DNA from: a virus
Virus record (IMG/VR): IMGVR_UViG_3300043313_000325
Coordinates: 1-22,001 of that record
Length of the DNA: 22,001 bases
Direction: 5' to 3' (one strand)
A program made the position numbers and the translations under genes. The notes beneath the pieces are model-generated. The model had not been told where the DNA came from, ran no database searches, and was given only the letters and a program-made list of their open reading frames with translations. Below, piece after piece: positions 3 to 22,001 of this stretch. The stretch's first letter is position 1; each line of letters starts with the position of its first letter.

Positions 3-548
3 AATGAACAGGGGTTTACCCGCGATGTTTTCCGTGGCGAAGGAAGGCCTATTGAGGGATCTTCTTTCGTGGAACGCCATCCCGGAAGATACGACCCCGG
101 TTTCCTTGGTGGTGATGCGATCTATGCGACGAACCGGCCTCACTTGGCGAACGATTACGCCATGCTGAAGGCGGCGCGAGAGTTCGATAACGGCGCTCCA
201 AATGTGATGCCGCTCAAGCTGAAGATGGAAAACCCGCATGTAATAAGTGCAGACGACAAGCGGCGTATTGCAGCGATGGATCGCTGGGACCGTGATGCGT
301 GGTTGCGGGATGAGGTCTATGGCAAGGGCCATGACGGCGTAATTGTCAAATACGGAGACGGCAATCCGGCGCGGCGATCCAGTGGCTATGAAGAATATGT
401 CGCGCCGGCTGCGAGTTATCGCTCGCGTTTTGCGGCGTTTGATCCAAAGAAGATTAAAAGCAGCGATTTACTAGCGAGCATTGCGCTGCTTGCACCAATA
501 GGCATGGGGGCACTCGTAGCGCAGGACCGTTATGAGGATGGGCGATGA
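3..548 (+). CDS. 3' end of phage polyvalent protein, ADP-ribosyltransferase-like (partial)
   Basis: The frame is open from the left edge, so the N-terminus and true start lie outside the window; a GTG at 69 is only an internal codon. The visible 181 residues carry marks of the ADP-ribosyltransferase-like domain found in large phage polyvalent proteins (ART-PolyVal). DVFRGE (24-41) holds a candidate NAD-binding arginine. GGDAIYATNRPHLANDYA matches the family's G-x-IY-x-T...A-x-x-YA block. GHDGVIV is followed by FAAFDPKKIKSS near the C-terminus. A short hydrophobic stretch (LLASIALLAPIGMGALVA) precedes the end. Such proteins are carried in or near virion genes and may modify host targets at infection; activity here is inference. 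The last 19 nt overlap the 3' end of the opposing HNH gene. A degenerate, inactive ART fold is the main alternative. Confidence 0.7.
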   Translation, partial: NEQGFTRDVFRGEGRPIEGSSFVERHPGRYDPGFLGGDAIYATNRPHLANDYAMLKAAREFDNGAPNVMPLKLKMENPHVISADDKRRIAAMDRWDRDAWLRDEVYGKGHDGVIVKYGDGNPARRSSGYEEYVAPAASYRSRFAAFDPKKIKSSDLLASIALLAPIGMGALVAQDRYEDGR

Positions 549-1054
549 CACTTGAACGATCTGCGGTTCTTGTTTTGCTCGGAGGCTGTCGCCCAGCGAC
601 AGTTATCTGGCGCGTAGCCCCGCTCATTGTCGATGCGATCAAGCGACATGCTGACAGGTTTTTCGCCCATGTCAGCGAGAAAATTCTCGAAGCTGTCATA
701 CCAGCGTTTACACACCGTGATCCCGCGTCCGCCGTAGTGCTTAAAACTTTTGGTGTTGGGGTTGTAGCAGCGGGTTTTCATACCGGACCACGCTCGAAAT
801 GTTGCAGTCCAGCCGCCCGAGGTGTGGCCGTGCGTAGTGCTGGTTTCGCGAACGCGGTCACGCATGAAGCATCCGCAAGACTGTGTGTTGCCGCTGCCGA
901 GGTCGCTGCTGGTGGCAGTCATTTCGTTGCCGCAAGTGCAGCGGCACTTCCAATGCACGATACTGATGCGCGGGGAGCGTCGATAACGATGCGACAAACC
1001 AAGAACGGTCAGGCGGCCAAACTGCTGACCTGTGATATCAATGAGTTTGGGCAT
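530..1054 (-). CDS. HNH-type homing endonuclease-like protein (antisense insert)
   Basis: A 174-residue protein on the minus strand among plus-strand late genes. It opens with a short beta-type segment (DITGQQFGRLTVLG). A candidate zinc ribbon follows, with Cys37/39/41 and Cys60/62. A W-x-x-M-K-T-R-C-Y-N-P segment and YGGRGITVCKRW come next, and then LDRIDN (138-143) with NCRWAT (151-156) and EQNKNRR. The last part is the phage HNH-like pattern, but the usual D-H of the metal site reads D-R, so nuclease activity is uncertain. On the minus strand GGAG stands 8 nt before the ATG, supporting this start. Its 3' end overlaps the upstream gene's end by 19 nt. Orientation and position between two structural genes fit a free-standing mobile homing gene. 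An alternative is a DNA-binding protein of the same family without cutting activity. Confidence 0.85.
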   Translation of the reverse strand: MPKLIDITGQQFGRLTVLGLSHRYRRSPRISIVHWKCRCTCGNEMTATSSDLGSGNTQSCGCFMRDRVRETSTTHGHTSGGWTATFRAWSGMKTRCYNPNTKSFKHYGGRGITVCKRWYDSFENFLADMGEKPVSMSLDRIDNERGYAPDNCRWATASEQNKNRRSFKCHRPSS

Positions 1055-1957: not shown

Positions 1958-2911
1958 ATGACCAAGGAAGCCACCAAGGAACTAGACAAGACCGGCGGCA
2001 AGGAAGCCAAGCCAGAGCGCCACGAGGGTGCAGGCCACGCTACCGGCGGCGCCGCCAAGGATCGGCAGATGCAAGTGCAGCCCAACCGCGACACCGATCA
2101 GGCTGCGCCGGCGTGGCCGGTATTCCCCGAAGACGAGCACAAAGAACCGATCGACCCGCGCACCGGCCTGCGCGGCCGGCCGGAGAGCCCGAGCGACCAT
2201 TTCGGCCAGCGCACCCGCGACAACGTCAACCCGGCCATCCCCTCGTCGCCTCCGGGCACTGGCGGGATTGTCGATCCGGCCAGCCTCGGCATGGAGCAGG
2301 GCGGTGGCGCCGAACCCCGCTACTATACCGACGAGGTGCCGGTGCGCTCGATCAATGAGCCGGGATCGCCGGCGGAACAGTCGTCGCAGGCCCCCTCCAC
2401 GCAAGAGGGAGCGGCGCCGCAGTGGCCCTATGTCGGTGTCGACCCGGCACACCCGCTCAACGTGCCGCAGAGCATCAACGAGCCTCCGGGCTCCGATATC
2501 TACGCGAACATTGACGAGGGTGAAGGCGGCGAGGGCGAGGATGGCCCGGATATTACAAGCCTTGACCCCGACGAGGCGGACGCCGGTGACGCCACCGACA
2601 TCGTGATGCATGTCTATGGCTCCGGCTTCACGCCGGAAAGCAAGATCTTCTTTAACGGCCTTGAAGAGCCGACGGTGTTCGTCGACGAAACCGAGGTCAC
2701 CACGGGCGTCAAACCCAGCCTGTTCGTGGTGCCGGCAGTGTGTCCGGTGACGGTCAGGAACGGCGACCTCGAAAGTGACGCGCTGGAGTTTGAGTTCCTG
2801 GACCCGGAAGATCCGCCGGCGGCGCGCGAGACCAAGCAGACCACGCGGCGCTCTAAGCCGAAGCCGAAGGCGGCCAAGAAGGCCAAGAAAGCCAAGAAGG
2901 GCAAACGCTAA
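1958..2911 (+). CDS. phage structural protein with IPT/TIG domain and Lys-rich tail
   Basis: Read from the ATG at 1958, which has GGGAG just upstream; an in-frame ATG at 1931 sits inside a hairpin and lacks a ribosome site. The product is 317 residues. Residues 1-195 are charged, Pro/Gly/Glu-rich and probably disordered. Residues about 197-283 form an IPT/TIG-like Ig domain (DITSLDPDEADAGD, VYGSGFTPESKIFFNG, then TVFVDETEVTTGV and the closing strands). The C-terminus is a basic run of Lys/Ala/Pro (KPKPKAAKKAKKAKKGKR). The acidic linker before the domain and the basic tail after it could be contacts with capsid and DNA or with an envelope surface. No signal peptide is present. Assignment to the virion comes from position next to the first IPT/TIG gene and upstream of the scaffold gene. 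Confidence 0.75.
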   Translation: MTKEATKELDKTGGKEAKPERHEGAGHATGGAAKDRQMQVQPNRDTDQAAPAWPVFPEDEHKEPIDPRTGLRGRPESPSDHFGQRTRDNVNPAIPSSPPGTGGIVDPASLGMEQGGGAEPRYYTDEVPVRSINEPGSPAEQSSQAPSTQEGAAPQWPYVGVDPAHPLNVPQSINEPPGSDIYANIDEGEGGEGEDGPDITSLDPDEADAGDATDIVMHVYGSGFTPESKIFFNGLEEPTVFVDETEVTTGVKPSLFVVPAVCPVTVRNGDLESDALEFEFLDPEDPPAARETKQTTRRSKPKPKAAKKAKKAKKGKR

Positions 2912-2918
2912 AAACGAA

Positions 2919-2944
2919 GGAGGGGCCGGTTTTCCGACCCCTCC
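2919..2944 (+). terminator. hairpin after second IPT/TIG gene
   Basis: GGAGGGG (2919-2925) pairs with CCCCTCC (2938-2944). Inside, CGG/CCG pairs around a TTTT loop after one C-A mismatch. It begins 7 nt after the stop codon. There is no T-run downstream, so an inefficient terminator or mRNA 3'-end protector is more likely than a strong intrinsic terminator. Confidence 0.55.
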
Positions 2945-3035
2945 ACCTTACCGTGCCACGTCATACCCGGCCGTGCCATACCGGACTACGCCGGGCCTTA
3001 CCCCGTCGAGCCGAGCCAGACCGTGCCAAGTCAAG
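2941..3035. repeat. 5-nt-periodic degenerate tract (pyrimidine-pyrimidine-N-N-purine x19)
   Basis: Cut into 5-mers from 2941, all 19 consecutive units fit Y-Y-N-N-R. The first base is C in 16 of 19, the second C in 17 of 19, and the fifth a purine in 19 of 19, while the third and fourth bases vary freely. Examples are CCTTA, CCGTG (three times), CCACG, TCATA and CCATA. The tract starts within the downstream arm of the hairpin at 2919-2944. It ends 10 nt before the next ATG (3046). It is not a simple-sequence repeat, because units differ, and the period of five does not fit a codon. Function unknown. Confidence 0.85.
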
Positions 3036-3045
3036 AGTATAGCAT

Positions 3046-3384
3046 ATGAGCAAGCATGAGATAGAGCTGATTGAAGTCTCACCCGGTCGTTGGCGGGTAA
3101 AAAGACCTCTGCTTGAACCGGCGCGATCAGACTTGCCGCGACCTCATGTGATCTCTGATTGTATGCCTGCAACAGAACAAGTCGACGGCAAGTTTTACAC
3201 CAGCAAGCGCCAATACCGGGCGGTGGGGCGTGCCAACGGCCTGATCGAGGTCGGCAACGAGAAGATCCCGCCGAAGCAGCGGGCGTCGGCCGATCGGTCG
3301 GTGAAAGAGGCCAGGCGAAAGGCCATCCACGCATCCATCCAGAAATACAAGGCAGGAGTGCGGACCCGCAGTCCGCAACCGTAA
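3046..3384 (+). CDS. conserved-looking small phage protein, function unknown
   Basis: A 112-residue basic protein between the 5-nt-periodic tract and the scaffold gene. Its ribosome site is poor (AAGAG at 3033-3037, 8 nt before ATG). The N-terminal part (EIELIEVSPGRWRVKRP) could form two beta strands. The central block DGKFYTSKRQYRAVGRANG with LIEVGNEKIPP resembles a motif I have seen in small proteins beside phage scaffold or capsid genes: a tyrosine/serine/lysine segment, then a helix, then EVGNE. The C-terminus is a Lys/Arg-rich helix. No cysteines form a zinc site, and no signal or membrane segment is seen. A role in head assembly or nucleic-acid binding is a guess from position and charge only. 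The stop is 15 nt before the scaffold ATG, so the two are probably co-transcribed. Confidence 0.7.
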   Translation: MSKHEIELIEVSPGRWRVKRPLLEPARSDLPRPHVISDCMPATEQVDGKFYTSKRQYRAVGRANGLIEVGNEKIPPKQRASADRSVKEARRKAIHASIQKYKAGVRTRSPQP

Positions 3385-5790: not shown

Positions 5791-5797
5791 GTTGAAA

Positions 5798-6364
5798 ATG
5801 AAGGCCAATAAGATGCCCTCGAAAGAGGTGCTAGACCAAGTGTTTCGCTACATCCCGGAAACGGGAGAACTAATTTGGAGAGTGAGGCCACTGACAATGT
5901 TCACGCAGGGCAAAACAGTTGAACGACCACGCTCTGCTGATCACGCATGCAATCAGTGGAATAGCCGATGGGCAGGCAAACCTGCGGCTTCACTGAAGGC
6001 TGATGGGTACTGCTACACACACTTCAACTATCAAACGATGTTGGTTCACCGCATCGCTTGTAAAATTATGACTGGCGCAGATCCTATCGAGGTTGACCAT
6101 ATCGACGGCAATCGCAGCAACAACAAGTGGACTAATTTGCGCAGCGGCACTCGTTCAGACAACCAGCGCAACACGGCTTTAAAAAGCACCAACACGTCAG
6201 GTCATCACGGCGTGTCCTTTAGCAAACGACAACAAAAGTGGATTGCTTCCATCTGGCTGGGATCATTTGACAGCAAAGAAGAAGCCATCGCTATACGCAG
6301 GAAATATGAAAGCTTACTTGGCTTCCACACCAACCATGGACGAGAGACTATCACTGCATCCTGA
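5798..6364 (+). CDS. HNH homing endonuclease with C-terminal AP2-like domain
   Basis: 188 residues from ATG 5798; a TTG at 5792 is in frame but has no separate ribosome site. The N-terminal part (EVLDQVFRYIPETGELIWRV) is the usual lead-in of phage HNH proteins. The nuclease core has VHRIACKIMTG followed by EVDHIDGNRSNNKWTNLR, with Asp100-His101 and the Asn-rich metal/DNA loop intact, so activity is plausible. An AP2-like DNA-binding segment follows (TSGHHGVSFSKRQQKW, then WLGSFDSKEEAIAI), but the strand-turn-strand usually found between 'WxAxI' and 'xLGxF' is missing. Two 60-base lines sampled in the gene are 53% and 48% GC, against 73% for a sampled line in the next structural gene, which fits recent transfer. 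It is an insert between the capsid gene and its likely terminator. Confidence 0.9.
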   Translation: MKANKMPSKEVLDQVFRYIPETGELIWRVRPLTMFTQGKTVERPRSADHACNQWNSRWAGKPAASLKADGYCYTHFNYQTMLVHRIACKIMTGADPIEVDHIDGNRSNNKWTNLRSGTRSDNQRNTALKSTNTSGHHGVSFSKRQQKWIASIWLGSFDSKEEAIAIRRKYESLLGFHTNHGRETITAS

Positions 6365-7194: not shown

Positions 7195-8001
7195 ATGGCC
7201 CTGTTGCAGGTGATCCGGGATGTGTGTGCGGTGGTCGGTGTTGCGATCCCGCAGAACGTATTTCCCAGCCTCGTTGGCAACAGGACCATGCAGGAAATGG
7301 TGGCGTTGGCCAACGAGATGGCGCAGCGCATCGCCTACGACACCCGCGACTGGACCGCGCTGAAGAAGACCCACATCATCTACGGCGACAGTGTGTGGGT
7401 GCCTCCGACCAATGTCCCGCCGGTCGACGGCTATTTCATTCCGGGCACTACGGCATGGGATCTGCCACCTGACTTCAAGCGGCTGTTGCTCAAATCAAAT
7501 GTGTGGCGAACGTCCTCGGTGCAGCAGCCGATGGTGTTCATCCCCGACGCCGAGCAGTGGCTGCACCGGCGCGCCCGCAACGAGGCCGGCAGCGCCTGGG
7601 GCGAGTGGACGATCATCGCGGGGCAGATGCATATTTATCCCGCGCTGCGTGGGATTACGCCCGAGGTTATCGTGATCGACCCGCCGTACACGGTGCCGGC
7701 GATCCCGCCCGACAGCGCGTATTTCGTCTACCTCGATAAGAACTGCATCAACCTGGTGGCGCCGAACGGCGACGCGCTGGGGCCGGGTGACACCTTCCAG
7801 GGCGACCTCGACACCTTCCGGCTGTCAGAGCGGCTGCTCAAGCTCGGCATGATCTGGCAGTGGAAGGCCCAGAAAGGCTCCGCCTACGCCGAGGATATGG
7901 GCACCTATGGCGATGCCCTGACCAACGAGATGGGCCATGACAGCCCCGCTCCGATCATCGTCGGCGACTACAGGGAGAGGGCGTATGCCCGTTTCTACTA
8001 G
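7195..8001 (+). CDS. putative head-tail adaptor protein
   Basis: 268 residues. The opening [16 protein letters not shown]...P.x.[14 protein letters not shown] with [21 protein letters not shown] is the helical start typical of adaptor proteins in short-tailed phages (P22 gp4-like or SU10-type adaptors): about ten residues of helix, a glycine loop, then an 'NE-x-x-x-R-I-A-x-D-x-x-D-W' helix. The middle is beta-rich, with [11 protein letters not shown], the short aromatic block [14 protein letters not shown] and [12 protein letters not shown]. The final third is helical again ([20 protein letters not shown], then [17 protein letters not shown]). Adaptors sit under the portal and join it to the tail nozzle. 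It starts one base after the upstream stop and overlaps the fibre gene by 17 nt. The family call is by pattern memory only. Confidence 0.7.
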
Positions 8002-9703
8002 TAAGGTCGGGGTTCCCAACGCTGCAGCATACAACATAGCCCTGCAAGGTCCGCCGGGGCCGCAGGGACCGCAGGGCCCGGAAGGCCCGCAGGGTTTGCA
8101 GGGACTGCAGGGACCGGAGGGTGATCCAAGCACCGTGCCCGGGCCGGAAGGCATCCAGGGTGAAAAGGGCGACAAGGGCGACAAGGGCGACACGGGTGAT
8201 CAAGGTCCGCCCGGCGCCACTGGCGTCGGCGCCGGCAACGTCAACGGCCCCGCGACAGCCATTATTGATGACATCGCCGTCTACAGCAACACCAGCGGCA
8301 CCGCCATCAAGGACAGCACGAAGAAGATATCCGATTTGCAGCCTATTGACGCCACACTGACGGCGCTGGCGGGGCTGAACGCCACGGCGGGCCTTGTCGA
8401 GCAAACTGGCGTCGATGTATTCACCAAGCGCGCTATTGGTGTGGCGGCTGCAACTGACGTACTGACGCGCGCGGGCGGCGATGGGCGTTATGCCTTAAGC
8501 TCGCACACCCATACCGCAGCCAACATTACCGACTTCAATGCCGCCGTAGCGGCAGCTAATCCTGTCGATAGCGCCGCCGCCACGACGTTCGCGGCAGGCG
8601 GCAACATCGCCGCCACCAACGTACAGGCTGCCATTACAGAACTGGACAGCGAGAAAGTTTCCAAGGCTGGAGACACCATGACGGGCGGGCTGGTCCTCAA
8701 CGCTGGCGTCACCGCCTATGTCTCGGGCGCTGTCGGTCAGGCGGGGAGCAGTGTAGTCCAGCTTCAATCCGCAGCGGGCAACGACACCATCATGTCGTTT
8801 CATCGCGCGGGCAGCTTCGCCTGCAACTTCGGTCTGGGGGCGGGCAACAATTTCTACATGGGCGGCTGGTCGTTCGGAACCGGCACCGCCTACCAGTTCT
8901 GGACGCAGCGCGACTTCAACTACACCCCGTTCCCCATCAGCGGGGGCACGATGACCGGGGCACTGACGGTCAACGGCAATATTAGCAGTAGTGGCAACTA
9001 CATCTATGCCGGTGCAGTGGAAGCCAGCGCCCACATGGCCGTCGGGACCGCCAGCAACAAGTCCGTCTACTTCGGCCCGACCGGCGACGGCCATTACATC
9101 CAATACAACGGTGCCAACGACTTCATCATACAGGGTTACGACCCCGGTTCGCTGAACGTGAAAGCCAACGGCACAGTCCAGAACGGCAGAGGCGTCGCAT
9201 GCCGCTCCGGCTACAGTGGCGGCTATGGTGGCAACTGCTTCAACATGCACTGGGCCAGCACAGTCATGTATCTGTATGTTGACGACACCTATCTCGGCAA
9301 CATCGCATTCCAGTCCGACTACCGCATCAAGAAGGACGTCATCGACCTCCCCGGCATGTGGGACACCGTCAAGAAGCTGCGTCCGATCCAATACACGCAG
9401 GCGCAATTCTCGCCGCCGTCTCACGTCGAGTTCGTCAAGGATCAGGTTGCGCTCGCCGCCAAGACGAGAGGCGGCGAAGAGGCCCCTATCGTTCCCGGAC
9501 CTCTTTTTGAGGCTGACAACATCGAACGCTGGGGCTTCATCGCGCATGAGCTACAGGCGACACTGACGCCGAGTGCGGCGACCGGCGTCAAAGACAGCCC
9601 CGACACCGTCCAGTCGCCGAACCCGTGGACCGTGATCGCGGCCCTGACCAAGGTCGTGCAGGAACTGCAACTGCGTGTCGAGATGCTGGAGGCGACCAGA
9701 TGA
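7985..9703 (+). CDS. tail fibre: collagen-like stalk plus C-terminal S74 chaperone/protease
   Basis: 572 residues from ATG 7985, chosen because GGGAGAGG lies just upstream (7975-7981); longer in-frame reading has no ribosome site. Residues 22-80 are about 19 Gly-X-Y triplets with one interruption, a collagen-like triple helix. Fibre modules follow, with [26 protein letters not shown] and [12 protein letters not shown]. From residue 444 the protein reads SDYRIKKDV, then WGFIAHELQ and a final coiled coil, which is an intramolecular chaperone of the Peptidase S74 type. In that family a trimer-building domain cuts itself off at the Ser-Asp bond, here Ser444-Asp445, leaving a fibre of about 443 residues. 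It overlaps the adaptor gene by 17 nt and the next gene by 4 nt (ATGA). Confidence 0.92.
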
Positions 9704-21474: not shown

Positions 21475-22001
21475 TTAGGCCAGACGAAGCTGACCCTTAC
21501 GCCGATTGGCCATGAAGCCAAGGCCCGCAAAACCCAAGATAATTAAGAACCAGCTAGCGGGCTCCGGTACAGCCGCGGTCACAGTGATATTGCCACCATA
21601 CCCCGAGGTGCCGCCGCCGTCGCCGCTGATCTGCAGGAAGTAATCACCGGCGCCCAGGACCGCTTGACCTGCGAGGATCTGGCAGCCGCCGGGGTTACCG
21701 GGACAGCCGACCGCCAGTACCGGGGCGTTGACCGCAACGTCATCGCCGCCGCCCACCTCGCCATCGGCTCCAGCGAAGAATAACTGGCCGGTGAAGCCGG
21801 TTATGTAGTCGGTTCCAGCAGTGCCTCCAGTGAAATCATTGGTGGCACTGGCGAAGGCGATGAAGGACGATGCCCCAGTCAGTTCGAAAGTGTATTGATC
21901 TTGAAAGACATCGCCACCAACGTCATTGGAAAAATGGCCTTGCTGGGATCGCGGGTTTACCCCAAGGTCGGTAATGACAGCGGCGCTGGCGGGCGCCGAT
22001 A
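21475..22001 (-). CDS. PEP-CTERM sorted extracellular protein (N-terminus outside window)
   Basis: The minus-strand frame is open from the right edge to TAA at 21475, giving at least 175 residues; a GTG at 21756 is internal. The outermost residues (SAPASAA) look like the end of a signal peptide, so little is missing. The mature part has GGDVFQDQYTFELTGASSF, resembling the Phe-x-Asp signature of one PEP-CTERM family, and a CPGNPGGC pair. Strand-rich Gly/Asp segments follow (FLQISGDGGGTSGYGGNIT). The C-terminus is a complete sorting signal: VPEPASW, hydrophobic FLIILGFAGLGFM, then ANRRKGQ. Exosortase recognises this signal and exports the protein to surface or matrix, usually with exopolysaccharide. 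It converges on the phage operon, so it is either the first host gene beyond the prophage or phage-carried cargo. Confidence 0.88.
   Translation of the reverse strand, partial: SAPASAAVITDLGVNPRSQQGHFSNDVGGDVFQDQYTFELTGASSFIAFASATNDFTGGTAGTDYITGFTGQLFFAGADGEVGGGDDVAVNAPVLAVGCPGNPGGCQILAGQAVLGAGDYFLQISGDGGGTSGYGGNITVTAAVPEPASWFLIILGFAGLGFMANRRKGQLRLA

Follow-up and report, generated by a model that had tools for sequence, protein, structure and literature searches.

The repeat tract and its surroundings

The window analysed here, a stretch of 22,001 nucleotides from a partial viral contig, carries a periodic tract (2941–3035) between two plus-strand genes of the head region: gene A, of unknown function (1931–2911), upstream of the tract, and a small conserved gene of phrog_21669, also of unknown function (3046–3384). 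The earlier note had claimed a strict 5-nt period of the form YYNNR over 19 units, mostly opening with CC, and this is borne out: all 19 pentamers fit the pattern and 14 of them start with CC. The autocorrelation suggested there as a check gives an identity of 0.49 at lag 5, and of 0.46, 0.55 and 0.56 at lags 10, 15 and 20, against a window mean of about 0.26. The period-5 information of the tract amounts to 71.5 bits, the highest (rank 0) of all 95-nt stretches in the window, while the longest YYNNR run found elsewhere in it has 6 units; the tract is the sole one of its kind in the whole record. We base its significance on this in-window ranking and on the target match described below.

The pattern had been read on the plus strand, where it is real, but the information lies on the minus strand, where the unit becomes YNNGG. 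There the tract follows a (YNNGG)19 pattern with all 19 units RYY-consistent; 14 units are exact, and five carry GA or AG instead of GG, every departure being a change of G to A and every deviant unit remaining inside YYNNR. The two free positions are hypervariable, with 10 distinct dinucleotides across the 19 units (minus strand, 5′ to 3′: TT TT AC CT TC TC GG AA CC GT CC AT AC CG AT GT AC AA GG).

The element is also wider than the repeat tract to which it had been confined. On the minus strand, an extended −10 promoter element, TGCTATACT, can be read on its 5′ side (3036–3044), abutted by the start of the phrog_21669 gene, and a terminator-type hairpin of 11 pairs, GGAGGGGTCGG-AAAA-CCGGCCCCTCC, follows the repeats directly (2919–2944), trailed by the T-rich run TTCGTTTTT (2910–2918), where the 3′ end of the unit coincides with the stop of gene A. 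We saw no good −35 for TGCTATACT, and a consensus promoter scan requiring a −35 did not list it. Judging from these signals, an RNA from TGCTATACT would begin at about unit 2, and the hairpin is a candidate 3′ tail and/or terminator of that RNA; unit 1 is part of the promoter region, unit 19 of the hairpin. In predicted folding the repeat tract has no advantage over shuffled versions of itself (z +0.28), as expected of the deliberately unstructured RNA that had been proposed, an idea that fits only in part; tract and tail together give z −2.3.

The whole unit is antisense to the flanking head genes, and the ATG at 3046 belongs to the gene on the opposite strand. A translational role acting through this ATG is therefore unlikely, because the RNA would be transcribed from the other strand. 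The half-turn phasing of DNA and the recombination seam, likewise offered as possible roles, are unsupported and not needed. None of the relatives carries the tract at the orthologous place. In many of them a small ORF of 59–65 aa directly follows gene A; no confident copy of it is found in the window, where the repeat unit occupies its place and seems to have replaced it.

Several other features of the window may be recorded here. Two HNH endonuclease genes, one antisense to the head genes (530–1054, minus strand) and one just past the capsid gene (5792–6364, plus strand), are likely homing-type insertions. Close to its start, a tail-fibre-like protein (7937–9703, plus strand) has GPPGPQ repeats of the collagen type. 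The end of the contig holds a short ORF with a PEP-CTERM-like end signal, VPEPASWFLIILGFAGLGFMANRR (21475–21756, minus strand), which runs against the phage genes and is perhaps a host or moron gene.

Arrays of the same unit and their partner gene

A search of viral sequence for the pattern had also been suggested. The viral collection was scanned for seven CCNNR units, which gave 120 contigs among the matches listed, and a phase-tolerant scan then found at least 127 arrays with 7960 units in 110 of these 120 contigs, mostly beside a gene of phrog_4652. Over the 7960 units, position 1 is C at a frequency of 0.83, position 2 is C at 0.86 and position 5 is a purine at 0.89, and the two middle bases are approximately random. 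The control pattern CCRNN also picked up real arrays, and raw match counts for CCNNR and CCRNN are not comparable. A small number of cellular or MAG contigs (L369, L381, L396, L406 and L445) have similarly diverse arrays, again with a phrog_4652-family gene, although CCNNR matches in genomes are mostly simple repeats. BLAST searches of phages and E. coli genomes with the tract and with one long array as queries returned nothing useful, because arrays share only GGY.

Among 139 array-flanking proteins, 37 match phrog_4652 and 14 match phrog_15946, both families of unknown function. With a profile of the phrog_4652 family, 76 of the 110 array loci prove to hold a member and none of the 103 loci from the window's relatives does, and seven more members, one a partial match, appear when the remaining 34 array records are searched whole. 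In nearly all cases YNNGG is read on the strand that encodes the phrog_4652 protein, and the array often starts no more than about 10 nt past the stop codon of that gene. Against solved structures, the profile matches the Vipr protein of Escherichia phage SUSP1 (36pp) with an E value of 1e-42, CRISPR Csm5 being a weak second; the AlphaFold2 model (pLDDT 97) has Csm3/Cas7 subunits as its top solved-structure matches in Foldseek, and in the alignment W144 and G183 are invariant and G170, G174, R179 and F185 nearly so. By profile, the phrog_4652 protein beside arrays is thus a Vipr homologous to that of SUSP1, and by its predicted fold a RAMP protein with a Gly-rich loop. The phrog_15946 family recurs beside vipr and arrays (for example L085:2729-3184, L066:1368-1898 and L132:1034-1531) and is a candidate accessory (vap) gene. 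Array-bearing viral records of 18–105 kb in which the profile detects no vipr are L023, L039, L043, L047, L077, L086, L098 and L122; these may hold Vipr proteins of a divergent type, or else be further solitary guides.

VIPR (Viral Interference Programmable Repeat) was described in 2026 as a phage weapon related to CRISPR (preprint PMC13142463). According to that preprint, the ancestral RAMP protein Vipr coats a vrRNA composed of 9–16 YNNGG repeats, related consensuses being allowed, together with a structured tail. The GGY positions serve as the vrRNA scaffold, whereas the NN dinucleotides recognise target sites in double-stranded DNA, each step passing over one target base that is usually at a codon wobble position (PMC13142463). 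Its targets are mostly satellites or prophages, and binding leads to transcriptional repression (PMC13142463). The suggestion that the tract might be a register for a protein reading every five bases accordingly matches the published reading of RNA by Vipr in 5-nt steps. Our literature search found vrRNA and Vipr terms together in no paper except PMC13142463, and no matching report on pentanucleotide or pentamer repeats.

A profile search finds no vipr in the partial 22-kb contig, which lowers the case for a complete VIPR locus but not that for a vrRNA-like guide. In the records of 21 relatives, vipr is present only in the sister phage G005 (43.8 kb), which is also the only relative with arrays besides the window, four of them, clustered about the vipr gene; the other 20 have neither. 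The longest relatives measure 41–44 kb, so roughly half of the window phage's genome probably lies outside the contig. Its host is likely a member of Hyphomicrobiales, since Rhizobium phage RHph_I3_18 has the closest capsid (59%) among named phages, and 11 of the 398 genomes from the order of L369, a record titled Aureimonas ureilytica, contain capsid relatives.

A matching site in a sister phage

Decoded under the 1-nt-skip rule, the guide reads TTxTTxACxCTxTCxTCxGGxAAxCCxGTxCCxATxACxCGxATxGTxACxAAxGG. We searched 3.87 Mb on both strands, the guide's own site excepted, and the best match to the full guide, 30 of 38 bases, lies at L134:160-216; in the same sequence 12 shuffled guides reach 24–27 and other skip rules 24. 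The match concentrates in 14 consecutive units, 3–16 (2956–3025, minus strand), of which 27 of 28 bases agree with L134, while the next best place has 21, and neither 60 shuffled guides nor other skip rules exceed 21. This 14-unit core was picked after the match had been seen; that choice affects neither the score of the full guide nor the scan of the whole collection.

The phage L134 is a sister of the window phage, with a major capsid protein 88% identical to the window's, and the matching site lies within the homologue of gene A, the predicted target. All 19 skip bases fall on the third codon position of this gene. Among 2.9 million viral contigs, an exact scan with units 8–16 found one, that of L134, which is also the only near-perfect target contig known. 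Units 3–11 returned 19 contigs from the viral collection, 8 of them being gene A of sister phages; seven further sister phages besides L134 match at 21 of 28 bases in this gene, and the window's own gene A at 17 of 28 at the homologous site. The other 11 contigs are non-relatives; the three that were translated share another gene (motif GTGF-x-DSV) and match less well, at 19–20 of 28, which we take as coincidence. A scan with units 3–12 and GG at unit 7 gave nothing, because unit 7 holds the one mismatch.

Other searches define the background of this match. The four array guides of G005, which serve as a negative control, have no target in the 3.87 Mb set and nothing comparable. The guide itself, used as a query for further vrRNAs that carry it, gave 7 matches, none of them in a YNNGG array. 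A target search in the 398 genomes of the order of L369 gave 2 one-mismatch matches against 1 on the control strand, which is chance level. A test of 1005 guides gave 80, 14 and 2 matches for skips of 1, 2 and 0, respectively, but many of these are low-complexity repeats counted several times, and we do not rely on them.

A predicted vrRNA gene and its alternatives

The observed period, anatomy, family resemblance and wobble-phased target match are best explained, with a probability of about 0.88, by a single VIPR-type vrRNA gene (2910–3044, minus strand) that would direct Vipr to gene A of closely related competing phages and spare the phage's own copy. Transcription of the minus strand would run from the extended −10 through the 5-nt repeats into the hairpin or terminator tail. 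Vipr, supplied by the missing part of the genome or by another element in the cell, would coat the RNA, and by analogy with the described system each NN would pair with target DNA, one base being skipped per step. The bound target would be transcriptionally repressed, as reported for other phages (PMC13142463). The guide would thereby send Vipr to gene A of close competitors, the diverged own copy probably being spared. RNA expression, Vipr binding, the skip code and repression are established for related systems (PMC13142463); for the window copy, we infer that it is transcribed, active and serving competition with sister phages. The earlier view that the tract is not a codon effect and reflects selection on DNA or RNA was thus essentially right. 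It had also been held that homologous loci without the period would speak against function. No relative indeed has the tract there, yet function is not refuted, because the element is a variable accessory guide whose variable bases are the targeting information.

The resemblance to the vrRNAs of SUSP1 and of a Pseudomonas fulva prophage (PMC13142463) extends to tandem YNNGG units with hypervariable NN, a putative structured 3′ tail in a unit of about 100 nt, the 1-nt skip with skip bases at wobble positions, and a target in another phage-type element, a competitor. The candidate tail in the window is the 11-pair hairpin with its T run, directly after the tract, compared here by its place and structured nature. 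Unlike those vrRNAs, which lie inside a vipr locus, the window has a single unit antisense between two head genes, in a contig without vipr; its GG is sometimes GA or AG, and its target is the sister-phage homologue of the adjoining gene. The class 1 CRISPR-Cas complexes, whose RAMP backbones (Cas7/Csm3) are also the matches of the phrog_4652 model, likewise read RNA in fixed steps. Their guides, however, pair contiguously except at every sixth base and come with palindromic repeats, spacers and cas genes, none of which were seen in the window; among those window genes that were compared with PHROGs, none matched a cas family. A CRISPR array was rejected at the tract, where a tandem-repeat scan lists none and the pentamers have free NN rather than repeat–spacer units.

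Some features do not sit easily with a working guide. The array is antisense to its flanking genes, whereas arrays that adjoin vipr share its direction; the contig has no vipr; five of the 19 units depart from GG; the 19 units counted by sequence exceed the published 9–16, unless the first and last are outside the guide, the target match spanning 14; and there is one near-perfect target. The missing vipr and the five degenerate units, together with the isolation of the tract between head genes and its absence from relatives, would also suit a decayed or orphaned vrRNA, the relic of a former guide in a phage that now lacks Vipr. We consider this improbable: neither the promoter element nor the terminator is damaged, no deviation leaves YYNNR, a living lineage still holds a target that agrees at 27 of 28 bases, unlike the own copy, and vipr is present in the lineage (G005), with nearly half of the genome unseen if it measures 41–44 kb.

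Periodic DNA without any function, arisen by chance or low complexity, could be imagined in a GC-rich window that holds simple repeats of other periods, given the many simple CCNNR repeats of cellular genomes. The 19 of 19 fitting units with diverse NN, their top rank in the window and the promoter and terminator around them make this reading scarcely credible, and the specific target, in which every one of the 19 skipped bases is a wobble base, leads us to regard it as refuted. Sites of TRAP, the trp RNA-binding attenuation protein, consist of (G/U)AG triplets with 2-nt spacers and so share with the tract a period of 5 in which three bases are fixed and two are free. This layout would suit a binding platform, just ahead of a start codon, for an RNA-binding protein that assembles into rings or filaments and regulates the genes nearby without recognising a target. 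TRAP leaders, however, serve bacterial metabolic regulation and have another triplet, the fixed RNA-strand triplet here being GGY with (G/U)AG absent; the RNA would come from the opposite strand, and a match of the NN bases to a sister-phage gene at 27 of 28 is unexpected for a mere scaffold. We give such a platform very little credence.

Within the vrRNA-gene reading, we raise only tentatively that the unit might be a stand-alone, self-promoted gene acting in trans, a guide against the nearest sisters that borrows Vipr from the host, a prophage or a co-infecting phage. If so, guides would spread as cargo apart from their effector, like solitary CRISPR mini-arrays; guides truly separate from vipr would be movable and kept as minimal weapons, which bears on the origin of RNA-guided immunity. 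The locus supports the skip code of VIPR on an independent system and offers a concrete guide–target pair between two sister soil phages, in which the guide matches the sister's version of the adjoining gene with wobble-phased skips, the phage's own version having diverged.

Arrays adjoining vipr elsewhere can be very long, with approximately random NN: those at L092:7608-9175 (about 313 units) and L035:6298-7028 (about 146 units) far exceed the 9–16 repeats of one published vrRNA (PMC13142463). The long arrays of L085, L099, L060, L073 and L062 are divided into segments of 9–12 units by a recurring one-base phase slip (−1, 220 occurrences), seen as CCTGCC when the CC strand is read. These slips may correspond to the ‘staggered arrays with overlapping vrRNAs’ of PMC13142463.
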